Shown here piece after piece: positions 6,224 through 50,451 of a stretch of 64,000 nucleotides of DNA. Position numbers and translations under genes: made by a program. Source of the stretch: a virus; the IMG/VR virus record IMGVR_UViG_3300007538_000022, positions 1 through 64,000 of that record, one strand, 5' to 3'. The number at the start of each line of letters is the position of its first letter. Positions within the stretch are counted from its first letter, which is position 1. Under the pieces are notes generated by a model. That model was given only the letters and a program-made list of their open reading frames with translations, did no database searches and was not told where the DNA came from.

Positions 6224-6589
6224 TTACTCGTGATAATATTCGATTATACCATCTGACTCTCCATCTTCTGAAACTACTACAATGTAATCTCTTGAAGAGC
6301 CGTATGTAGTTAATAAAAAATTGTTTAATATAATAGTTGCAATTGATTCACAACTGTGAGTATTTAGCTCTTGATTTTTTAGAAAGTTATTTAAATTCCA
6401 TTTTACTAAGAAAAATTCCAATTCTCTATCTAAGTGTGTAACAGATATTTTGACGCTAACTTTAAAAATATGTCTATGCATGTTTTCTAAAAATGAAATT
6501 TTAGGATCAATTTTCCCAGCATCTGGGTAACAATGAAATCCTTCAAATTCTGTTCGAACTTTTATAAATTGTTTTATTTTTGCACTCAT
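6224..6589 (-). CDS. small QueD-like (T-fold) conserved phage protein
   Basis: 121 residues. EFEGFHCYPDA, then NMHRHIFKVSVKISV, resembles the HGHSYKVEV strand of QueD/6-pyruvoyl-tetrahydropterin synthases. A helix (SCESIATIILNNFL) and VVVSEDGESDG fit the QueD order PTAENIAK then VWET. The Cys-x3-HGH zinc/catalytic motif is incomplete (HRH only), so it may not have the QueD reaction; a true QueD is at 51175. Similar proteins occur widely in phages without a known role. Position in an operon with the DpdA-like gene suggests work on the same base. QueD relation is inference from pattern. Confidence 0.55.
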   Translation of the reverse strand: MSAKIKQFIKVRTEFEGFHCYPDAGKIDPKISFLENMHRHIFKVSVKISVTHLDRELEFFLVKWNLNNFLKNQELNTHSCESIATIILNNFLLTTYGSSRDYIVVVSEDGESDGIIEYYHE

Positions 6590-9739: not shown

Positions 9740-10726
9740 TTATGAAAAATCAAATAAATCATTAAAGTGATTATCTCGTTTAGTTGAATCGATATCGTAA
9801 TTCAGTACTCCAATTAAGTTAGAGATCTTGTTATCTATAATAGTTTCAGACATTGCATCGTCGTCAAATGGCAATTCTTTAAACCATTCTGGTAATCGTA
9901 GTTCGTCAGTTGGATATGCAATAGAAGTCCACCCTAATGGGTTTGATCTAAGCTTGCAAACAATAACTTTCATTCCATCAACAATTTCCATTGAATGTTT
10001 GTCGCTATTTGCTCTACGTAGTGAGTTCCAGTTCAATGAAGCTCTAATATGCCCTGGCATATTAGCTTTCCCTAATCGTTCTTCTAATTCTTTATAGTGA
10101 GCTACATTGTTAGCACGTTTAGGAGTACCTTTATCCCATCCAGGCATGTCTTTAAATTTCTTTCTAAAAACAGTAATTTGTTCCAATATATCTTCTTCAG
10201 ATGATTCTTGTAAAACCATTAATAAAATTTTCATTAAAAATTCTTGCATATAGTCGGGAGTATCTGATCTACGTAAATCTAACCCCATAGCCTTAACTTT
10301 ACCTGGCTTACCATCTACATCTTTACGCTTCCCTTCTTCATCGTATACTAATGCAGCATATCGTTTTTTTGTGATGTATAATCCACTTAATGCAACAATC
10401 TCTCTACCTGCAGCAATAACATCCGATCTTGCTTTCCCACAATGAAATGCTTTTTCCATAAATTTTGGAAATGAAGAATTAGCTTGTTCGCATATTTGAT
10501 CATATAATACAACAACTTTTTCTTTATCCCAGGGTAACGTACCGTTGTTTATTTCGTTTTCAAATAATGGAAATGCGGAAAAATACACAGAGTCGGTATT
10601 GTGTACAAGTGATCCATTTGCAAAAAAGAATGGATCTTGATTAGCTATCGATACATCATAAACATAATCCTCTGTAGTATCTAATTTTTCTACACTTTTA
10701 ACTCGTTGTCTTATTGTTTCAGCCAT
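9740..10726 (-). CDS. 43: DNA polymerase gp43, C-terminal half with split-intein C fragment
   Basis: 328 residues. Residues 1-43 are the C-terminal part of a split intein: DYVYDVSIANQDPFFFANG, ending in Val-His-Asn. Extein sequence starts at Thr44 as TDSVYF, the second half of the family B polymerase motif C (YGDTDS). The rest (KKRYAALVYDEE, MGLDLRRSDTP and beyond) is the gp43 thumb and C-terminus, 285 residues. Joined to the 602-residue N-extein it gives 887 residues, close to T4 gp43 (898). The polymerase can only be active after trans-splicing with the product of 10930. The ATG overlaps the end of a decayed endonuclease frame. Confidence 0.92.
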   Translation of the reverse strand: MAETIRQRVKSVEKLDTTEDYVYDVSIANQDPFFFANGSLVHNTDSVYFSAFPLFENEINNGTLPWDKEKVVVLYDQICEQANSSFPKFMEKAFHCGKARSDVIAAGREIVALSGLYITKKRYAALVYDEEGKRKDVDGKPGKVKAMGLDLRRSDTPDYMQEFLMKILLMVLQESSEEDILEQITVFRKKFKDMPGWDKGTPKRANNVAHYKELEERLGKANMPGHIRASLNWNSLRRANSDKHSMEIVDGMKVIVCKLRSNPLGWTSIAYPTDELRLPEWFKELPFDDDAMSETIIDNKISNLIGVLNYDIDSTKRDNHFNDLFDFS

Positions 10727-10887
10727 TTAACACACCTTTGTATAGTTTCATGCATATTATTCTTAAATTCTGATTCCCAAATTACTAAAGTAGGAATATT
10801 TCTTTCAAATAATAATGCGTTAATTTTTTCTTTATCTTTTTGCCAAATATCTCTAGCAAGTAAATTTGCCTGTCTATGATAATAACC
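10711..10887 (-). pseudogene. remnant of a Vsr-like homing endonuclease between split-intein halves
   Basis: 58 codons open after a TAA, with no start codon at the left end. The translation starts GYYHRQANLLARDIWQKD, continues to NIPTLVIWESEF, and ends ETIQRCVKWLKQ. The pattern HRQ-rD-x-KD, then L-I-W-E-x-E matches the C-terminal part of Vsr/EDxHD-type endonucleases, where such motifs carry catalytic residues. The N-terminal half is missing, so it should be inactive. Its place between two halves of a split-intein gene matches the fractured-gene arrangement known from marine phage sequences. The family call is from pattern only. Confidence 0.6.
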
Positions 10888-10929
10888 TTACTCCTAATCA
10901 AGTTAAAAAAGCCAAAGATATAAAGAAAA

Positions 10930-13101
10930 TTAAGAATCTATAGAGATAATCAAATCATTATCTTCTAACTCTGTAGGTTTAACTTCGACTGTAACCCCAT
11001 CTCTATCAACTATTAAACTATGATCTTCTGTAACAGTCACAGAGCTACCGTCTTCCATTGTAACCTTGTATAATTGTTTAGATGTTTTATGTCGCATAAC
11101 ATACGCAATCTCACCAAATACAGCCTCATCTTCGTGTGCATTATATCCTAATACTTTTAGATCATGCTGTGCTTCTGTAGGAATAGCATATTCCTTGCCA
11201 TTATCTTGTTCTACTTTATACTGAATTTGATCAAACAAGTCTGATATAGGCATATCTCCTTTGTTCGTGTTTAATATAGTATCACCTATAACAGAGTCAC
11301 CATATATAACTGCTTTGCCGACATGGTCATAATCACCTGAAATTATCTTATTAACTTCTGCACTCATATGACGAACAATGCTTCTACCTGTTAATGTAGT
11401 AGATTGCCCTATACGTTTATCAAAAAATCGACAGCCTTGGTTTAATATAGCTCCATAAAGACTGTTTAAGTTAATTTTCTTTACAAGTTGGCGTTTATCC
11501 CAAAATGCAGCTTCTAACGTGTTTCCTGCTTGATCTGCTTTTTTCTTTTTAGCTTGAAGCTCTTTCCTTTCAGCATACCATCGTTTTAACAAACCTGGAA
11601 TAACACCTTCAAATTCAGTAGTAAATATTGTTCCATTTGCAGAAAGCATCCATGGTACATTACTTTCAAATATGAATTTATATATTTCAGCACCACTAAA
11701 TGTATCGGATTTACCATTAGTCCAGTCAATTGTAATAGCTAGATCTTTTCTTTTGTCCATTACAGCTTCATATTCTAAACTACTAAATCGGCCTTCCCAT
11801 GCTGTTGCGAACTTTTTTTTGTTTAATACAACTTCTTCATGCAACATTTGCTCAGTATAGTCCTGCCTTAATTGACCTACAATAGTTTCAGGAGCCATAT
11901 TTAATGCTCTAATAACGCTAGGATACAGTGAATTTAAGTCCATCGATCCTATCCATTTGTGGAATCCTTTTTTAGGATAAGCTACATATGCACCTGCTGC
12001 TTGCACTGCTTGTTCCGATTTTGGAGATCTATTTGGTACTTGTAGTCCACGTTCGTGCGCTTCGTTAATAATAGCTTGTTCTGTTACAGCTACTGCTCCC
12101 ATTGTAGTCTGAAGTAATACGGTATTTGCGTGAGCAAGTTCGTTTGTTAAATCTATAAATTTAAGTTTTTTATCAAGTTTATTCAATAACACAGTATCTT
12201 GGATATTATATTCGATAAACTTTTTAAAATCATTATTATATAATTGGTCTAAAGTTCCATCGTATGGAACTTTAGTTTCATTAACTTCTAATTCCCCAAT
12301 TGCGTCTAATCGATACGAATGTCTTTCTTCGTATGTATACTTTCTATAAAGTTCTAAAGAATCTAAATGAATCCTTCCAACAAGATCATACGTTTTTGAA
12401 ATTTTGCCATATCTTTCAAATTCTCGTTTTTTAGGAAGTTGATTCCATAAACAGAATCGTCGAGTATCGTCTTTGCTCAATGCTTTTGCTACCCGATTAA
12501 CCGTATATGGAATATCAAAACTTTCAGAGTTCCATCCTGAAAGCACATCGGCATCTTCAATTAAAGTTAAAAATGAATCTAACATTTCTGCTTCAGAATT
12601 ATATAATATTACACCGTTGATGTCTTTAACTTCTTCAGCAGCTTGCTCCATTGTTAAGGTTTTTGGTGGTACAGCTAAACATACCATTGTATCTAACCAT
12701 TGCAAATATACAGATATAGCAGTAATTGGCATAAACGGGTCATTAGGTGATGCATAACCTTTAGTTGGATCAAAGTCTGTTTCAATGTCAAAAAATGCAA
12801 TGTTTAGCTTAGGTGAATCCTGATTTAAATAGTGTTCGCTTAAATTTTGGAATATTGGATTAATATCAGATTCATAAAGTACTGAATTTTTATTAATAGC
12901 TAGTTCTTTTCTAAAATCTTTAGTATTTTTACATACTATTCTTGAAAGTGGTGTATTGTATATACTCTTATATTTTCCCTTTTGATCTTCATAGTAAAAC
13001 GTATATTTCACAGGATAATCAACAAATTTACGGGAGCCGTTATGCCGTTCTACTATGCGTATAGTGTCGGCTTCTTTATCAAAAAATGCATCTATGTACA
13101 T
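10930..13101 (-). CDS. 43: DNA polymerase gp43, N-terminal half with split-intein N fragment
   Basis: 723 residues. Residues 1-602 are family B polymerase: exonuclease motif I FFDIETDFD with D105 and E107, ExoII NSESFDIPY from 191, ExoIII YNIQDT near 298-303, motif A DLNSLYPS at 388-395, and motif B KKINLNSLYG. The extein ends at Tyr-Gly-Asp. The intein N fragment (121 residues) starts with Ser (SVIGDTIL), and has block B in VTVTEDHSLIV. A Ser at intein position 1, not Cys, is less usual. The protein stops after DLIISIDS. The missing TDS half of motif C is encoded separately at 9740. GAGGTTTT precedes the ATG. Confidence 0.95.
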   Translation of the reverse strand: MYIDAFFDKEADTIRIVERHNGSRKFVDYPVKYTFYYEDQKGKYKSIYNTPLSRIVCKNTKDFRKELAINKNSVLYESDINPIFQNLSEHYLNQDSPKLNIAFFDIETDFDPTKGYASPNDPFMPITAISVYLQWLDTMVCLAVPPKTLTMEQAAEEVKDINGVILYNSEAEMLDSFLTLIEDADVLSGWNSESFDIPYTVNRVAKALSKDDTRRFCLWNQLPKKREFERYGKISKTYDLVGRIHLDSLELYRKYTYEERHSYRLDAIGELEVNETKVPYDGTLDQLYNNDFKKFIEYNIQDTVLLNKLDKKLKFIDLTNELAHANTVLLQTTMGAVAVTEQAIINEAHERGLQVPNRSPKSEQAVQAAGAYVAYPKKGFHKWIGSMDLNSLYPSVIRALNMAPETIVGQLRQDYTEQMLHEEVVLNKKKFATAWEGRFSSLEYEAVMDKRKDLAITIDWTNGKSDTFSGAEIYKFIFESNVPWMLSANGTIFTTEFEGVIPGLLKRWYAERKELQAKKKKADQAGNTLEAAFWDKRQLVKKINLNSLYGAILNQGCRFFDKRIGQSTTLTGRSIVRHMSAEVNKIISGDYDHVGKAVIYGDSVIGDTILNTNKGDMPISDLFDQIQYKVEQDNGKEYAIPTEAQHDLKVLGYNAHEDEAVFGEIAYVMRHKTSKQLYKVTMEDGSSVTVTEDHSLIVDRDGVTVEVKPTELEDNDLIISIDS

Positions 13102-13582: not shown

Positions 13583-14029
13583 TCATGGAGCACGACTAGC
13601 ATCCTTCATTAATTGTACAAACTCATTTTTGTATGTTTGATTACTTAAACATTTTAGTAAAGCATTATTATAGACTTTAATATATTTATTGTAATTAAAT
13701 GTAACACTAGACGGGCTTATGGGTGTTAATACTATATCTCTACGAGTTTTTAACGCAGGATCAGCTAAAAACATTAAATCATTAAATCGTTTAAGTAATG
13801 CAGCATCACTAAAACATTTTTGTATATTTGGTTTTTCTGTAGCAATATATTGTTGCACTTTTTTTAATGCAGTAGGATCTTTTAAATTAGATGATTTTTT
13901 TTCTTGTTGATCAGGTTTTAGTACTCCAACTGTATTGTAGTTCTGCCATGCACTAGTTTTATCCAGACCTGTAGCTCTACCTACAATATCGGTTAACTCA
14001 CCTTCTGTTAAAAGTTCCATTATTTTCAT
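13583..14029 (-). CDS. putative internal head protein with capsid-targeting-like N-terminus
   Basis: 148 residues, no recognised domain. The N-terminus is MKIMELLTEG. Residues Leu7-Thr8-Glu9-Gly10 match the T4 prohead protease site [I/L]-x-E-[A/G], at the same position as in T4 internal proteins (MKTYQEFIAE|A). After this come a conserved-looking WQNYNTVG and a basic, helical body with several Cys. It follows two genes of the same type, so packaging in the head is plausible. The packaging claim is inference; enzyme activity is unknown. Confidence 0.55.
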   Translation of the reverse strand: MKIMELLTEGELTDIVGRATGLDKTSAWQNYNTVGVLKPDQQEKKSSNLKDPTALKKVQQYIATEKPNIQKCFSDAALLKRFNDLMFLADPALKTRRDIVLTPISPSSVTFNYNKYIKVYNNALLKCLSNQTYKNEFVQLMKDASRAP

Positions 14030-26445: not shown

Positions 26446-26964
26446 TTATCTTAAAAACTCTCGCCAATCTAATTCATATTTGATTGGATTAATTTTGTGT
26501 AGTTCAAGTAAATATAATACAAATGAACTAACACTACTACCTCTACCTACGCCCCATAATATATTATGTTCTCTCATTAAGTCAACTAAAAATTTTACAT
26601 ATTTAAGAACATTTAAAAAATTAAGGTTAATGTATACTTCAAATTCTTCATTCAATCGGTCAACTTCTTGTTGACTTTGACATTTATTTAACAAATAATC
26701 ATAAACATCAAACTCTTTATATTTAGTAGGCATAAGCCATTCTGTTTGTAAAATTTCATCAAACATTAGTACATCAATGTCTAATGACATATACAATTTT
26801 AAACCTGGTAAATCTTTATTAAATTGTATTTCATTAAATTTCTCAACATCTTCAGATGGTTCACACAATACATTAAAAAGTTTACTAGCATCATTTGAAT
26901 ATAAGATATCTACAATATCTTTATCAGATGCTCTTAATAAACCATACTTATCTTTAACTAACAT
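26446..26964 (-). CDS. truncated DnaE/PolIII-alpha-like protein
   Basis: 172 residues. The end is strikingly like bacterial DNA polymerase III alpha: ILWGVGRGSSVSSFVLYLLEL (about 135-155), then NPIKYELDWREFLR, matching the DnaE GRGSAAGSLVAY and DPLxYxLLFERFL segments. The protein stops just before where DnaE has its catalytic Asp-x-Asp, so it cannot be a polymerase. The N-terminal 130 residues (LPGLKLYMSLDID and others) are less familiar. It may be a stable phage family derived from DnaE or a decayed one. Gene context: conserved proteins of unknown function. Confidence 0.6.
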   Translation of the reverse strand: MLVKDKYGLLRASDKDIVDILYSNDASKLFNVLCEPSEDVEKFNEIQFNKDLPGLKLYMSLDIDVLMFDEILQTEWLMPTKYKEFDVYDYLLNKCQSQQEVDRLNEEFEVYINLNFLNVLKYVKFLVDLMREHNILWGVGRGSSVSSFVLYLLELHKINPIKYELDWREFLR

Positions 26965-43334: not shown

Positions 43335-43796
43335 TTATTTAAATGGATTTGTCGAATTATAAGAAAGCAATTCTTTTATGTTAATCCGTTTTGCCTTTGA
43401 TCCAGATTGCTGTGTTATTATGTTTGGAAATTCGTCTTTAGACTTAACTCTATTGTTAGCTGGCAAACGTAGTATTATTGGCATTTTAGATATATTTGAT
43501 TTTTTAATCATAGTAGCTCTTGCTCGTCCTTCATGATCATAAACTTTGCCATCTATAGTTATATCTAAAGTAGGTAACCAATCGCTTGTAAATTTTTCAT
43601 TATCAAATTGCCCGTACTGTAATGCACGGTCTGATGCTTGTCCGTTGCTATCGTCTGCAAGAAATAAAAAGTCATCTGGAGATATTTCAGCAACCGCAGC
43701 CCTAGATCGATCATCTGGATAGACGTTATTCTTAATCTCTTTTTTCCATTGCTGATCTGAAATATAGATTCGATTAGTTATTTCTACAATCTTCAT
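43335..43796 (-). CDS. HEGRxRA-motif (ParB/Srx-fold-like) protein
   Basis: 153 residues. The core LDITIDGKVYDHEGRARATMI with IPIILRLPANN resembles the ParB/sulfiredoxin-type motif (D-G-x-H-R / HEGRxRA) seen in phage and plasmid polyvalent proteins; substrate unknown. N-terminus MKIVEITNRIYIS is of the MK-x-x-E type shared by neighbours but without a protease site. The start touches the stop of the GH19 gene 43797, so they are co-translated. Confidence 0.5.
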   Translation of the reverse strand: MKIVEITNRIYISDQQWKKEIKNNVYPDDRSRAAVAEISPDDFLFLADDSNGQASDRALQYGQFDNEKFTSDWLPTLDITIDGKVYDHEGRARATMIKKSNISKMPIILRLPANNRVKSKDEFPNIITQQSGSKAKRINIKELLSYNSTNPFK

Positions 43797-44642
43797 TTAT
43801 GATCCAGATTTTGCAGTTGCAGTAGAAGTATTGTTAGCAACAGTTGTATTCATAGAGGAAACATATTTGTTATACTTATTAGTTCGATCGTCTAACCCAT
43901 TTAAGCTACTGTTAATACGTTTAGTTACTTGTTTAATATCTGTAAAATCAGTTACATGTGGTCTTACTCTTTTTTTCCAATACATTATAGCAACTTTTGC
44001 AGCAGTTTCAGGTTCAGATAATTTATTTGCATTTGTCCAAGTACTAGTAAAATCGTCACCTAACAATTTACCCATCCAATTATAGTTCCATCTACCAGTA
44101 AGTTGAAAATAACCTCTACCGATAAATCGTTTTGCATCATTTAAATTTTTATTACCTAAACTTTTATTTTTTAAATAACTTTTAATCCTAGGATTAGTTT
44201 CAACCATTCTAGTAAAATTTTGGCATTCGTGTGCTGCTTGTGCCATAAATGCTGCTAATTCTGTTCCTTTGATTCCAGCTTTTTTCGCAGCATCTAACAA
44301 TGTTTTTTCACTGGGCTGCTTAGTTAATAATTTAACAGTAGCTGCTTGTTTAGTAGTCTTTACTGTTTTAGGCTGATCTGCATTTGATTTAGGTGTACTT
44401 TTAGACACTGAGTCTATCTTGGGAGATTTTTCTTGAGATGTTGGATTTCTAATTTTATCCAATTCTTCTTGCGAATAAGTTTGATAAGTAGGGTCTTTAG
44501 TAAAGTCTGGATGATTATAGTCTTTAACTTTCATTAACCCAGCACCTGCTCCTGCAGTAACTGCTGCACCAATCCCTAAACTTGCTGCTAAATCCTTCCA
44601 ACCTTCGTTAATCATGTCGTCAGTTATTTCTATCATTTTCAT
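43797..44642 (-). CDS. second GH19 lysozyme-like enzyme, probably virion-associated
   Basis: 281 residues. GH19 domain (about 110-265): AFMAQAAHECQNFTRMVE with the likely catalytic Glu, RFIGRGYFQLTGRWNY, and VTKRINSSLNGLDDRTNKY. It differs from the lysis endolysin at 19511 by having no peptidoglycan-binding domain and by a 100-residue N-terminal extension that is Lys/Ser/Thr-rich. The N-terminus MKMIEITDDMINE|GWKD has Ile-Asn-Glu-Gly, a prohead protease site, followed by a hydrophobic Gly/Ala stretch. I infer a head- or tail-borne murein hydrolase used at entry, not a lysis enzyme. Confidence 0.75.
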   Translation of the reverse strand: MKMIEITDDMINEGWKDLAASLGIGAAVTAGAGAGLMKVKDYNHPDFTKDPTYQTYSQEELDKIRNPTSQEKSPKIDSVSKSTPKSNADQPKTVKTTKQAATVKLLTKQPSEKTLLDAAKKAGIKGTELAAFMAQAAHECQNFTRMVETNPRIKSYLKNKSLGNKNLNDAKRFIGRGYFQLTGRWNYNWMGKLLGDDFTSTWTNANKLSEPETAAKVAIMYWKKRVRPHVTDFTDIKQVTKRINSSLNGLDDRTNKYNKYVSSMNTTVANNTSTATAKSGS

Positions 44643-44654
44643 ATTGGTATTCCG

Positions 44655-44903
44655 TTATGTTTGCCGTATACTATACATTTTTTTCTCTATTCGACTTAAT
44701 GCTTCGCGTTGTACTCGTAATTGTGCTTCAAGTGCTTGAACATATCGTTGAGTAGGTATTTTTTGAATAACTCCATTTTCTCCTAGTAGCTCAAAATGGT
44801 CTACTCCTTGCCCTTTTAACCCACCTGCAACTCTGTTAGGATTTTTAGTATCAGTGGAAGACTGCTGGTGTTTTTTTCCATACATTGTATTTAAATAATT
44901 CAT
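44655..44903 (-). CDS. small conserved phage protein
   Basis: 82 residues. NPNRVAGGLKGQGVDHFELLGENG is a conserved phage pattern of unknown function, and the C-terminal 30 residues (YVQALEAQLRVQREALSRIEKKM) form a coiled coil. The start overlaps the metalloprotease stop by four bases. May be a structural or head accessory protein. Confidence 0.6.
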   Translation of the reverse strand: MNYLNTMYGKKHQQSSTDTKNPNRVAGGLKGQGVDHFELLGENGVIQKIPTQRYVQALEAQLRVQREALSRIEKKMYSIRQT

Positions 44904-45895
44904 TGTAATTCCTGTTTTTTATCTAAAAGTTGTTTGAGATTATCTCGATAATTTAATAATAACTTGCCGACTAACTTATAAAATCGTTTAAATATTTTAT
45001 ATTCTGAATAATTAGTCTTATCAAAATAAGAAGCATAGTTTGCCATTATGCTACTATAATATTCTTCTTTCATAAAGTTGCCATTTTTAATAAAGATTGA
45101 TAACCGTTTAAGGTAAAATTTTATATCTTCAATACTAGCATAATTAATATTATCTTCAATTAATTCATGTAAGATGTATAATACTGCTTCGTTTGCATAT
45201 GCTGATATTTCTTGTGGACTAGACAAATATAATTTTAAATCATTTTTGTCCCTTTTACCAGACATAATTGAATCTATTGCTTTATTAAAGATTTGCTGAT
45301 CATTAGTTAAATATGATCGATATTCTTTTGATTGTTTATTCTGTTTTAAATCTTGTTGCATATGTACTAATTCATGTATAAAAACATAAATTAGTTTTGC
45401 AACAGAATTACTTATTTTGTAAATAGGACTTTTAAATTTAATAGATTTAATAGTTTTGTATGCACGTTGGATGTTATGAATTGTATTAGTTTCATCAAAA
45501 TCATTTTGATTAAATAATTCTTGTGTAATACTATTTTTTAAATTTTCCAAAATAGCATCAAGTAAATCTATATTTAATAAAATTTCAGTGTTTGACGCTT
45601 GGCCAGGTACTGTTAAATTTTTTGAAAATTGAATCTCTAATGTATCTGCTAATTCCATATTTAATATATGTTTTGTAAAATATCTAAACTTTTTTATAAT
45701 ATTATTTTTTAAAATCCGTAGTAAAGTTTTATCTAAAAATAAATAAAAATCATCATAAGATATTAATTTTTGATTACTATATTGTTGATAGAATATCTCA
45801 CCAATAGAAGCAACAGTATCATGCAACGCATTGTCAACTAGTGATAACAATTCATCTCTATAATTGCTATATGAAATTACTTCATGTAGTTTCAT
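44900..45895 (-). CDS. putative zinc metalloprotease B (HExxH gluzincin-like)
   Basis: The start is ATG 45895 (MKLHEVISYS, 331 residues) with CGGAG 11 bases upstream; an upstream GTG is possible. FIHELVHMQQ gives H174-E175-x2-H178; 50 residues on, YLSSPQEISAYANEA gives E229 as the likely third zinc ligand. EYRSYL lies between. The same layout appears in 46871 and 55729, so the three are paralogues. Helical N-terminal 160 residues have no known domain. The leader is a copy of the 77-base repeat that also precedes 45978. No signal peptide. Substrate unknown; peptidase activity is inferred from the motif only. Confidence 0.65.
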   Translation of the reverse strand: MKLHEVISYSNYRDELLSLVDNALHDTVASIGEIFYQQYSNQKLISYDDFYLFLDKTLLRILKNNIIKKFRYFTKHILNMELADTLEIQFSKNLTVPGQASNTEILLNIDLLDAILENLKNSITQELFNQNDFDETNTIHNIQRAYKTIKSIKFKSPIYKISNSVAKLIYVFIHELVHMQQDLKQNKQSKEYRSYLTNDQQIFNKAIDSIMSGKRDKNDLKLYLSSPQEISAYANEAVLYILHELIEDNINYASIEDIKFYLKRLSIFIKNGNFMKEEYYSSIMANYASYFDKTNYSEYKIFKRFYKLVGKLLLNYRDNLKQLLDKKQELQ

Positions 45896-45967
45896 AATAT
45901 AATACACTCCGATATACGATCAATTAAACTAGCTCTATATTGTGTTAATTGTTGATATACAATTTTA
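45891..45967. repeat. direct repeat copy 1 (77 bases)
   Basis: 76 of 77 bases are identical to 46858-46934. It holds the ribosome site and start region of gene 44900, and is derived from the last 22 codons of a metalloprotease gene. The single difference (A at 45904, T in the other copy) turns the stop TGA into TGT. Confidence 0.95.
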
Positions 45968-45981
45968 TCGCTGTGATTCAT
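45892..45981 (-). pseudogene. 29-codon remnant of a metalloprotease C-terminus
   Basis: Reads MNHSDK, then IVYQQLTQYRASLIDRISE, as at the C-terminus of the metalloprotease 46871, then CIIL. Its ATG overlaps the stop of 45978 (ATGA), and its TGA overlaps the ATG of 44900, so it could still act as a coupling mini-ORF. Evidently left by the duplication that made the direct repeat. Confidence 0.65.
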
Positions 45982-46862
45982 AAATCCCTCTCTTTGTTAA
46001 AATGTGTTGCTAATGATTGGTCAATATAATTGTACGGTTCTTCTCTAGCTGCTGCACGTTTTAAATAACGGTTCTCAGGGTCTATTTTACTAGTATGTGA
46101 TAGCATTGCGCTATGTGTTCCAACTTTAGTAGCACCTACTTTAAATATTTTATCTTCAACAAAACTAACGTACTTAACCTGAGAGTTATTTTCAATAAAC
46201 TTATTAATTACATCGCCTAAAATTTTGATACATTGCGAATATGCAGCAGTGTCAAATGGCATTTTTTGTTTACCAGTACCGTAATATTTTTTCCAGTCTG
46301 CTGTGAATAAGCCGCCAGACTGTTGTGTGTCATCTGTGAATAATCCGGGATTATCATATTGTGGGAAATCCCCCCATAAACTACTAGGAACAATTCCTAA
46401 TGGTTCAGACACTGTTACAAAATAAACCGGATATTTATTATCGTTTATAATTCTGTTATAGCTTTTGTATATTCCACGAGCAGCATTTGCCCATGGTTTA
46501 GTTTTACCACAAGGTACAAATGCTACCATTTTATATTTAGAGGGAACTTCATACTTAACAATTTCTCGATGCCAGTTAGCAATCTCAGGATGCTTAAATA
46601 ATGCAAGTGTTTCGCCAGGAGTGTATGCTGTGAGCTCAGGATTAAGCAATGGATTACTAGCTAGACTACGTTGTACCAACCATTTTCTAAATTGCGGCCA
46701 CATTTCTTTTGAAATATATTTAGGAGAACCTAATTGATCTATTTCTGTTTGAGTGAGGTTGGCAAATGCGTTTTGTTTTTCTTCTGAACTGATATTAGTC
46801 GGTGGGGCAATACTTTTGATAGATATTTTTCCTGCTTCCTGTATAAATTCACTTGCTTTCAT
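45978..46862 (-). CDS. ArcS-core-like protein with capsid-targeting-like N-terminus
   Basis: The start is ATG 46862 (MKASEFIQEAGK, 294 residues), with CGGAG upstream. Residues 111-170 (VAFVPCGKTKPW, FVTVSEPLGIVPSSLW, then PQYDNPGLF) resemble the core of archaeosine synthase ArcS/DUF5591, where P-C-x-x-K-P-(Y/W) and S-x-PLG-(V/I)-VP are conserved. ArcS changes preQ0 in tRNA to archaeosine; here the link to a deazaguanine pathway is suggestive. Ile7-Gln8-Glu9-Ala10 matches the prohead protease site, implying packaging. The gene is exactly bracketed by the 77-base direct repeats, so it looks like an inserted cassette. Domain call is from motif memory only. Confidence 0.55.
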   Translation of the reverse strand: MKASEFIQEAGKISIKSIAPPTNISSEEKQNAFANLTQTEIDQLGSPKYISKEMWPQFRKWLVQRSLASNPLLNPELTAYTPGETLALFKHPEIANWHREIVKYEVPSKYKMVAFVPCGKTKPWANAARGIYKSYNRIINDNKYPVYFVTVSEPLGIVPSSLWGDFPQYDNPGLFTDDTQQSGGLFTADWKKYYGTGKQKMPFDTAAYSQCIKILGDVINKFIENNSQVKYVSFVEDKIFKVGATKVGTHSAMLSHTSKIDPENRYLKRAAAREEPYNYIDQSLATHFNKERDL

Positions 46863-46934
46863 AATATAATTCACTCCGATATACGATCAATTAAACTAGC
46901 TCTATATTGTGTTAATTGTTGATATACAATTTTA
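46858..46934. repeat. direct repeat copy 2 (77 bases)
   Basis: Partner of 45891-45967. Here it is the intact 3' end of metalloprotease gene 46871 plus the ribosome site and ATG of 45978. Confidence 0.95.
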
Positions 46935-47911
46935 ATGAATCGTTTATAGATAGCAAACTCTTTTTTATTTGCAGGTTTATAGAAAAAATCTCGATACGTT
47001 TGAATAATCTGATAACTTGTTGTATTATTTGACAAGCCTAATATTGCTTGATCCAACTTAAATAAAACATCACGTACAGAATCTTTGTTTTCAAGTGAAG
47101 AATCTAATACAGTACCTAAAATCTCTAAAATAATCCCATAAGCAGATTCTTGTGCATACGCAGCTATTTCTTGAGGACTAGCATAATATAATTTAAATTT
47201 GTAATCAGTGTCTTTGTTTTTCATTAGTTCCGCAAACTTTTTCTTATCCTTCATTAAGTAGGATCTGTACTCAAGTGCGTCTACGTTTTTTTGATAATGC
47301 AGTTGTCTTGAAATTTGGATAAAATGTCCAATTTCATGGATAAGAGTTGTTACAAAAGGAATTGTCACGTCTCGATATTCTCTAAACATAAAATTCCAAG
47401 TATTAAACATTTTTTTCAATACCGAAATCGCTTCACCTACTGTTGGAATGTATGCATCTTCATCTTCTTCTTCTTCTTCATCATCATCGTAGTTAAACCC
47501 TAGACTATCTAGTTCTAACACATCTGTTAACATCATATGCATAGAGTCTATCACAACAGACACCATATCCATTATTAAGCTAATATTAACGACTATATAT
47601 TCATTTCCAACAGCTTTTGCTTGAATTGACGGTCCTAACGCATCAAACCGAACTCTAACTAATGTTTTTTCATATATTCTATTAGACATTGCATCTAACA
47701 TTGTAGAAAAAAGTGAGTCTGGATCGTTAAAGTTAAGTTCTGATCTCATGCTTATAGGGGGTTCTAATAACTCGTCAGTAGGATCGTCTTCCTCTAATCG
47801 ATTAACCAATGCTCGAAGCGTATCGTCCATTGCTTGTAAAATTGCTGCTTTAAGTTTAACTTGCAGCTCTCTATGATCTACTGCTTCGATTATTACATCT
47901 TTTATTTTCAT
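46871..47911 (-). CDS. putative zinc metalloprotease A (HExxH gluzincin-like) with head-targeting-like N-terminus
   Basis: 346 residues. LIHEIGHFIQ gives H192-E193-x2-H196; YYASPQEIAAYAQES gives E248 as the likely third ligand; ALEYRSYLM is between. N-terminus MKIKDVIIE|AVDH: Ile7-Ile8-Glu9-Ala10 fits the prohead protease site at the same position as T4 internal proteins. An acidic run (about 141-152) follows GFNY. The C-terminus (about the last 22 codons) is duplicated at 45891. No signal peptide or membrane segment. It could act on a host protein after injection; target unknown, activity inferred from motif. Confidence 0.65.
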   Translation of the reverse strand: MKIKDVIIEAVDHRELQVKLKAAILQAMDDTLRALVNRLEEDDPTDELLEPPISMRSELNFNDPDSLFSTMLDAMSNRIYEKTLVRVRFDALGPSIQAKAVGNEYIVVNISLIMDMVSVVIDSMHMMLTDVLELDSLGFNYDDDEEEEEDEDAYIPTVGEAISVLKKMFNTWNFMFREYRDVTIPFVTTLIHEIGHFIQISRQLHYQKNVDALEYRSYLMKDKKKFAELMKNKDTDYKFKLYYASPQEIAAYAQESAYGIILEILGTVLDSSLENKDSVRDVLFKLDQAILGLSNNTTSYQIIQTYRDFFYKPANKKEFAIYKRFIKIVYQQLTQYRASLIDRISE

Positions 47912-49629: not shown

Positions 49630-50451
49630 TTAGTACGATCCCCAATTAGATTCTTCTTCGTCGTGTGCTAATTGTGCTTTAGTGGGTTGTATTGGTGAAT
49701 ATTTGTTATCTACTAATTTTCTATTTTTAATGATAGAAGTTTTAAAGAAAAGTGCTTGAATCGGTTCATTATGATGTATGATTCCAGTATTATCAATAAA
49801 ACCATCTATTCCAAGATGTTTTGTGAATAATACAGTTAGTGCAGATGGAATTGACTTTGGTGTTGGTAAATAAGGAATATGCTGAACTGCGTAACAAAAC
49901 GCCCAAAATCTACCACCTGGTAACTTTGATCTTAACGCTGTTTTAAAGACTTTTTGTTTCAACTCGTTTATATATTCTACTAAAAATGATGTATCAACAT
50001 CTTCGATACTAATTTCATAGTCAATTTCTTTCATTTGTGCAAGGTATTGAGTAATCCAAGAATAGATAATACGTTCTTCTATGACTTTGTAGTAATGAGA
50101 AACTTGTTCTTCGGATATTGATGGCAAATCGATAATATTTCCAGAAACTGAAAACAAATTAGCATACGGAGATGTTCCTGCAAATGGTAAAAAATAAGCA
50201 GATTTGCCATCTTTCATAATGTTATATACATATTCAAGTGGATATGCGTATATTCCAACTGGAGTGTTGTATGATGTTTGAGGATTGATTCCTAACTTCT
50301 CAATGTTTGTAAATGAAATAAACGCATTTTTAATAGTCGAGTTAGGCAATGTACCTGCTTTTTCTAAGTAATCTTTAATATGCTGATTAATAGATATTTT
50401 TGGATTTAATATCGAATGTTTTCGTGCTTCTAAGATATCTTTTACTTTCAT
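49630..50451 (-). CDS. unknown protein with head-targeting-like N-terminus
   Basis: 273 residues, no confident family. N-terminus MKVKDILE|ARKHS: Ile6-Leu7-Glu8-Ala9 fits the prohead protease site. Striking features: NTPVGIYAYPLEYVY (about 62-77), YFLPFAGTSPYANLFSVSG, LPGGRFWAFCYAV, and a C-terminal GIIHHNEPIQALFF. The order of a G-I-Y-A-Y strand, an S/P-containing loop and a late acidic residue vaguely recalls ADP-ribosyltransferase-type effectors, but I cannot place the catalytic triad, so that is speculation. CTAAATA lies six bases before the ATG, with no ribosome site. Confidence 0.5.
   Translation of the reverse strand: MKVKDILEARKHSILNPKISINQHIKDYLEKAGTLPNSTIKNAFISFTNIEKLGINPQTSYNTPVGIYAYPLEYVYNIMKDGKSAYFLPFAGTSPYANLFSVSGNIIDLPSISEEQVSHYYKVIEERIIYSWITQYLAQMKEIDYEISIEDVDTSFLVEYINELKQKVFKTALRSKLPGGRFWAFCYAVQHIPYLPTPKSIPSALTVLFTKHLGIDGFIDNTGIIHHNEPIQALFFKTSIIKNRKLVDNKYSPIQPTKAQLAHDEEESNWGSY

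Follow-up and report, generated by a model that had tools for sequence, protein, structure and literature searches.

The minus strand of a 64,000-nucleotide stretch of viral DNA (the window; positions 1 to 64,000 of the 90,274-base virus record IMGVR_UViG_3300007538_000022) carries a gene for a DNA polymerase similar to gp43 of phage T4, which is fractured at the codons of its catalytic motif by a putative split intein. The locus comprises two open reading frames (ORFs). The N-half ORF (10930-13101) specifies 723 residues, 602 of N-extein followed by 121 of the N-terminal intein part, IntN; the C-half ORF (9740-10726) specifies 328 residues, 43 of the C-terminal intein part, IntC, followed by 285 of C-extein. 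The N-extein (11296-13101, 602 codons) covers the exonuclease and the N-terminal part of the polymerase and ends in AVIYGD. IntN (10933-11295, 121 codons, SVIGDT to IISIDS) begins with Ser1, contains the block B motif TEDH and is followed by a stop codon at 10930-10932. IntC (10598-10726, 43 codons, MAETIRQ to SLVHN) has its own ATG, and the C-extein (9743-10597, 285 codons) starts with TDSVYF, whose threonine is Thr+1, and is closed by a stop codon at 9740-9742. Joining the exteins gives 602+285 = 887 residues and restores YGDTDSVYF at the junction.

The N-extein matches the Pfam families DNA_pol_B_exo1 (E = 3e-21) and DNA_pol_B (8e-27) as well as phrog_262 (4e-145), and the C-extein matches phrog_1918 (3e-49). 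At the level of the ORFs, Pfam recognizes an exonuclease, DNA_pol_B and Intein_splicing in the 723-residue product and DNA_pol_B and Intein_splicing in the 328-residue product. Together they hold the exonuclease and polymerase motifs of a T4 gp43-like PolB enzyme, with YGDTDS regained on joining. The polymerase C-half retrieved 69 empty-site loci that are contiguous exactly at YGD/TDS (the slash marks the insertion point), from which the extein/intein boundaries were placed. A preliminary description of this DNA had proposed the two ORFs, their terminal residues, the lengths of the two intein parts (121 and 43 residues) and a joined product of 887 residues with an exact YGDTDSVYF; the ORF and extein/intein boundaries were confirmed, and the relatives are contiguous at the predicted junction. 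Among bacterial and archaeal genomes, a relative of the polymerase C-half was found only once, without IntC, in a metagenome-assembled genome labelled Euryarchaeota, and a DNA pattern search aimed at an intein-free allele in the virus of the window found none.

As the virus is known from metagenome contigs only, the break might be an artefact of assembling or sequencing a contiguous intein or an intact endonuclease gene. However, an independent contig, L090, shows the identical break and the identical gap between the ORFs with 8 mismatches over 12,363 bp (99.94% identity), and other lineages have similar gaps of other sizes. The break is thus not an assembly accident, and an artefact of this kind, ruled out by L090, has a negligible probability. 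The preliminary description had named a contiguous, intein-free assembly of this virus as one outcome that would speak against it; L090 has the same break instead.

All splice residues of a class 1 intein are present: Ser1, TEDH in block B, VHN at the end of IntC and Thr+1. Neither IntN nor IntC contains a cysteine, which together with Ser1 and Thr+1 identifies a cysteine-less split intein. It is naturally split, each of the two cistrons joining an intein part to an extein, and the split lies between blocks B and F, the usual position of an endonuclease. IntN matched NCBIfam TIGR01445 (intein_Nterm, 2e-10, over the cut-off) and Pfam Intein_splicing; IntC matched Pfam Intein_splicing (3e-4), and its TIGR01443 score of 14.6 bits fell below the cut-off of 15.6. 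When IntN and IntC together were compared with solved inteins, the best match was the fused Aes123 PolB1 split intein (PDB 9hth, E = 2e-16). An AlphaFold model of the contiguous relative L151, with the window halves among the aligned rows, had a mean predicted local distance difference test score of 96 and found 9hth as its best PDB match (template modeling score, 0.89); the structure modeled is that of L151. The matches to solved inteins and the 69 uninterrupted relatives exclude chance. We infer that the window encodes a class 1 split intein, predicted to be active in splicing. The family matches, the empty-site relatives and the conserved catalytic residues uphold the initial proposal that a split intein fractures a T4 gp43-like polymerase at YGD/TDS.

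The gap between the intein halves

The ORFs are separated by a 203-bp gap (10727-10929), on which the preliminary description was silent and which holds the remnant of an endonuclease gene. In relatives, a full endonuclease gene sits between the intein halves. The remnant (10711-10887, minus strand) is the 3′ end of a VSR-like homing endonuclease gene, with 58 codons and a stop codon but no start codon. It reads GYYHRQANLLARDIWQKDKEKINALLFERNIPTLVIWESEFKNNMHETIQRCVKWLKQ followed by the stop and equals the last 58 residues of the ~314-residue endonuclease of relatives, matching residues 257-314 of the L011 enzyme (E = 1.9e-16, 53% identity) and phrog_22677 (1e-5). As in Aes508, its stop codon falls within the beginning of IntC. 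Missing from it are the N terminus with the CxxC...HxxxxC pattern and the conserved sequence YDI...IEFNGDYWH, and with these the catalytic core. An intact free-standing endonuclease between the halves, the mark of the mobile form, was not found in the window. The insertion point had been proposed to favor homing; homing is indicated for relatives with an intact endonuclease, but the window copy, reduced to the last ~58 endonuclease codons, should not home alone.

The extent of the loss can be read from L091, a related viral locus with a complete endonuclease. The left arm of the gap aligns with the L091 spacer that follows IntN, scoring 54 where the best of 500 shuffles scored 33, and the right arm aligns with the 3′ end of the L091 endonuclease; ~0.9 kb of L091-like sequence is therefore missing. 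Next to IntN, a piece of the spacer that led to the lost gene is left (10888-10929, minus strand); it can be aligned with L091 up to a deletion junction near 10885-10888. With L011, the 5′ part of the gap gave no significant alignment, as 39 of 300 shuffles did equally well. In L091, a small antisense ORF (MRIKEVTKKVV...LTPAQVKKAKALKKIKNL, about 6355-6510, minus strand) runs toward the end of IntN; the window has kept nothing but its 3′ end, at 10888-10943 on the plus strand, so the deletion took the rest of it too.

Within the remnant also lies AAAGG (10735-10739, minus strand), which probably serves the IntC cistron as its ribosome-binding site, a function deduced from the sequence; the corresponding region reads AAAAGGTGTG in L010 and CAAAGGTGC in L011. 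The location of this site within the remnant may be the reason why this end of the endonuclease gene was retained.

Source of the intein and selection on it

Apart from L090, the closest intein is that of L091, with 87% amino acid identity in IntN and 86% in IntC. The polymerases of the two viruses are only 57-64% identical, whereas empty-site polymerases reach 77% identity to that of the window. At the DNA level, identity is 81-83% within the intein and falls to 60-64% in the 600 bp that flank it to the left and right. A tree in which the window and L091 polymerases were forced into one clade was rejected (approximately unbiased test, p = 3e-63). As the inteins are similar but the polymerases distant, and joint ancestry of the latter is rejected, the intein was acquired horizontally, and an internal deletion of ~0.9 kb removed its endonuclease. 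The L091 locus has in addition ~900 bp of small ORFs between the endonuclease and IntC, which are absent from the window.

Between the window and L091, the ratio of nonsynonymous to synonymous substitution rates (dN/dS) is 0.06 for IntN, 0.15 for IntC and 0.40 for the endonuclease remnant, the last value being imprecise and indicative only, for a short sequence that is partly IntC control sequence. Purifying selection thus acts on the intein despite the loss of the endonuclease, as would be expected if the polymerase needs splicing. The catalytic motif has two conserved aspartates, one on either side of the break; neither half should therefore polymerize alone, and selection should maintain splicing even in an element that has lost its own means of moving.

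The same observations bear on the idea that the two products assemble noncovalently into a two-subunit polymerase in which the intein parts are inert leftovers. The split gp43 of Aeromonas phage 44RR works as a two-subunit complex, and intein-free gp43 splits exist elsewhere, such as the upstream gp43A/gp43B break in Aes508. However, in the window the break lies between the catalytic aspartates, every splicing residue is retained, the dN/dS of IntN is low in a copy devoid of endonuclease, and the VHN-T junction of IntC is conserved in nearly all split members of the family. We therefore regard noncovalent assembly as improbable. Alternatively, the gene might be broken and the phage might rely on another polymerase, for which a 172-residue PolIII-alpha-like ORF (phrog_11127; 26446-26964, minus strand) could be a candidate. 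This is even harder to accept, since both halves are open over their full length with conserved motifs, the intein is constrained, and no other complete polymerase gene was present among the window ORFs inspected, in a record that may be incomplete.

We thus consider it very likely that the gp43 gene was invaded at YGD/TDS by a horizontally acquired split-intein element whose endonuclease was later deleted, and that trans-splicing yields an 887-residue polymerase. A fractured-gene mobile element would have entered the gene at these codons, coming by a horizontal route from a phage whose polymerase was only distantly related and consisting of a split cysteine-less class 1 intein with a free-standing gene for a VSR-like homing endonuclease between its two halves. 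The internal ~0.9-kb deletion would then have removed the endonuclease, sparing its last 58 codons including the probable IntC ribosome-binding site. The neighboring cistrons would give two precursors whose IntN and IntC associate; Ser1 and Thr+1 would perform the N-O acyl shift and transesterification, the C-terminal Asn would cyclize, and the resulting 887-residue polymerase with YGDTDSVYF would contain the peptide AVIYGDTDSVYF.

Within this scenario, the sequence comparisons show the anatomy of the locus, its exact insertion point, the horizontal origin of the intein, the deletion in the endonuclease gene and the purifying selection on the intein. Several points weigh against the scenario. 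Expression, trans-splicing and the need of the phage for splicing are deduced from sequence; the virus is seen as a 90-kb record, possibly incomplete; and the dN/dS of the remnant has the limits mentioned above. Membership of the lost endonuclease in the VSR family is weakly supported as well. Its homologues carry a VSR annotation in PTm1 and Aes508. The endonuclease profile matched Vsr structures weakly, over residues 239-303 (E = 0.36-0.46), and a fold search with a model of the endonuclease gave no usable match, so that the assignment rests on depositors' labels of homologues.

Related inteins in other viruses

The preliminary description had called for a search of marine viromes for the same break. 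The break was found at YGD/TDS or the neighboring position in dozens of viral contigs and in some isolated phages, and is therefore not unique to the window. Two insertion points are used: YGD/TDS with Thr+1, as in KP13-7 and SCTP-2, and YGDTD/S with Ser+1, as in PTm1, PA5oct and Aes508. An IntN profile gave 239 confirmed matches in viral contigs, and the best 80 of these 239 yielded 42 distinct classifiable inteins. A full endonuclease is present in 29 of the 42 and a 3′ remnant in 6, while 5 are split without a recognizable endonuclease copy (in one of them, L102, the gap measures 1.3 kb and may be occupied by a different gene) and 2 are contiguous.

Copies with an intact endonuclease look recently mobile. 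Thus, the intein and endonuclease of L011 and L013 share 99-100% DNA identity over ~1.5 kb, and identity drops sharply to roughly 70-90% in the flanks, which indicates homing for these relatives. Such endonucleases might also act in trans, so that the element would still be mobile in coinfections and the window allele a nonautonomous hitchhiker, a possibility compatible with the scenario proposed above. Related viruses do carry intact endonucleases of the same family, in one case next to the 87% identical intein. However, no second endonuclease copy was found in the 90-kb record, a weak argument as the record may be a fragment, and no recent transfer of an endonuclease-less copy was seen; we hold mobility in trans to be unlikely.

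Loss of the endonuclease appears in the family at short range. L112 has a full endonuclease gene of which L111, L113, L114 and L115 lack ~825 bp, and long flanking pieces of these genomes are 99-100% identical to those of L112. The presence and deletion of the endonuclease among near-identical genomes argue that loss is ongoing. In a tree of 69 inteins, the state of the endonuclease (full or not full) changes at least 16 times, a count that takes in other endonuclease types (L003, possibly L102) and does not by itself give the direction of change. One contiguous intein, that of L151 (6001-6477, a single open frame), is nested among split relatives with moderate branch support (Shimodaira-Hasegawa-like approximate likelihood ratio test, about 90). 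Internally it reads TLTNN-MDTEYTRV, and MDxxYTxV is the start of IntC in its split neighbors, which points to an apparent refusion of a split intein with retention of the old IntC start Met.

Further arrangements were observed in these polymerases. L150 (6001-6978) holds two contiguous inteins in one frame, YGD-[intein]-TD-[intein]-SCYF, separated by a Thr-Asp dipeptide; the first resembles the YGD/TDS group and the second the YGDTD/S group. The contig might be chimeric, and a dedicated search found no second tandem case. In L015 (2531-5962; also L094-L096), a contiguous Cys1 intein of the LAGLIDADG type interrupts the exonuclease motif SGWN/SEGYD, and the same polymerase also carries an endonuclease-less split intein at YGD/TDS with a gap of <40 bp. 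A second recurrent break of ~0.2-1.9 kb affects the N-extein near residues 520-548 in L100, L128, L130, L135, L139, L145, L150, L151 and L154.

Cysteine-less phage PolB split inteins have been documented, expressed and engineered (PMC11923092, PMC12707363). The Ser1 nucleophile, initially put forward as a new feature, is not one: Ser1 cysteine-less PolB split inteins have been characterized and solved, namely Aes123 PolB1 (9hth), CP21 PolB1 and LCGC14 PolB2 (PMC11923092, PMC12707363). The Aes123/Aes508 PolB1 intein of Aeromonas T4-like phages (JN377894; 9hth; PMC11923092) resembles that of the window in lacking cysteines, in its place in the gp43 YxDTDS motif, in Ser1 and in an IntN of about 120 residues, and it shares its fold with the window relative L151. 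In Aes508, the halves are separated by a VSR-like endonuclease ORF that runs about 17 bp into IntC, an overlap also seen with the window remnant. However, the Aes insertion follows DTD (Ser+1), two codons downstream of the Thr+1 site, IntN is about 31% identical, Aes508 retains its endonuclease, and its gp43 has further breaks. For both PTm1 and Aes508, the parts of gp43 are labelled in GenBank as "intein-containing split DNA polymerase precursor".

In the Pseudomonas jumbo phages MIJ3 and PA5oct (PMC6892783; NC_071039), PolB likewise has a split intein whose halves enclose a free-standing endonuclease gene, but the site is YGDTD/S, the endonuclease is a different one, annotated as Hef-like (PA5oct) or HNH (MIJ3), and IntN is 39.5% identical to that of the window. 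Klebsiella phage KP13-7 (OP617745) shares YGD/TDS, Ser1/Thr+1 and the split, and differs in that its intervening endonuclease-like ORF is full-length and annotated as hypothetical. Salicola phage SCTP-2 (MF360958) has the same site and Ser1/Thr+1, but its intein is contiguous and ends in Lys-Asn. LCGC14 PolB2, GOM-OPS-1 PolB2 and CP21 PolB1, for which trans-splicing has been demonstrated, are naturally split at the typical position, with Ser1 and an IntN of 115-120 residues; each has Ser+1 and one nonessential cysteine (PMC12707363), whereas the window intein has Thr+1 and no cysteine. No description of a Thr+1 split intein at YGD/T was found in the open-license literature. In the fractured genes of ocean metagenomes of Dassa et al. 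2009, a study cited in PMC6892783 and PMC3653736, split intein halves reportedly flank a free-standing VSR-related endonuclease gene; the window differs in having just the 58-codon remnant.

Other inteins of the genome and the fate of endonuclease-free forms

The intein profile also matched the 90-kb record at 81.5-83.1 kb, outside the window. There, four ORFs (81116-84502 of the record; L244:2617-6003, minus strand) make up nrdA, which encodes the large ribonucleotide reductase subunit. It holds two Cys1 split inteins, VYMSNL/CLSGDT...LVHN/CQEITL and MPSES/CLNWEH...ISHN/SSVVSN, and no endonuclease; the cistrons concerned lie 11 and 2 bp apart. The third break, between the second and third ORFs, is without intein. 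Three split inteins, none beside an intact endonuclease, thus appear to reside in the enzymes with which this phage makes and polymerizes its DNA building blocks. Many proteins encoded on the minus strand of the window share an N-terminal MK-x-x-E/D-hydrophobic leader (MKIMELL, MKIVEI, MKMIEI, MKLHEV, MKASEF, MKIKDV, MKVKDI), with ORFs at 13583-14029, 43335-43796, 43797-44642, 44900-45907, 45978-46874, 46871-47911 and 49630-50451. We take these leaders to resemble those that target the internal head proteins of T4 to the capsid.

The window adds to the known systems a natural Ser1/Thr+1 split intein that is devoid of any cysteine and lies two codons from the characterized insertion points. The related loci present empty, endonuclease-bearing, endonuclease-deleted and apparently re-fused alleles at one codon, which bears on how endonuclease-free split inteins arise and makes their origin and fate directly testable. 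We lean toward a life cycle played out at a single codon in phages, in which the split intein would home with its endonuclease, the endonuclease would be deleted repeatedly and independently, with a compact, immobile split intein as in the window as the result, and the halves would sometimes be re-fused to a contiguous mini-intein. The split state would then be a reversible by-product of a free-standing endonuclease rather than a terminal one, and endonuclease-stripped Ser1/Thr+1 split inteins would constitute a natural pool of trans-splicing tools.

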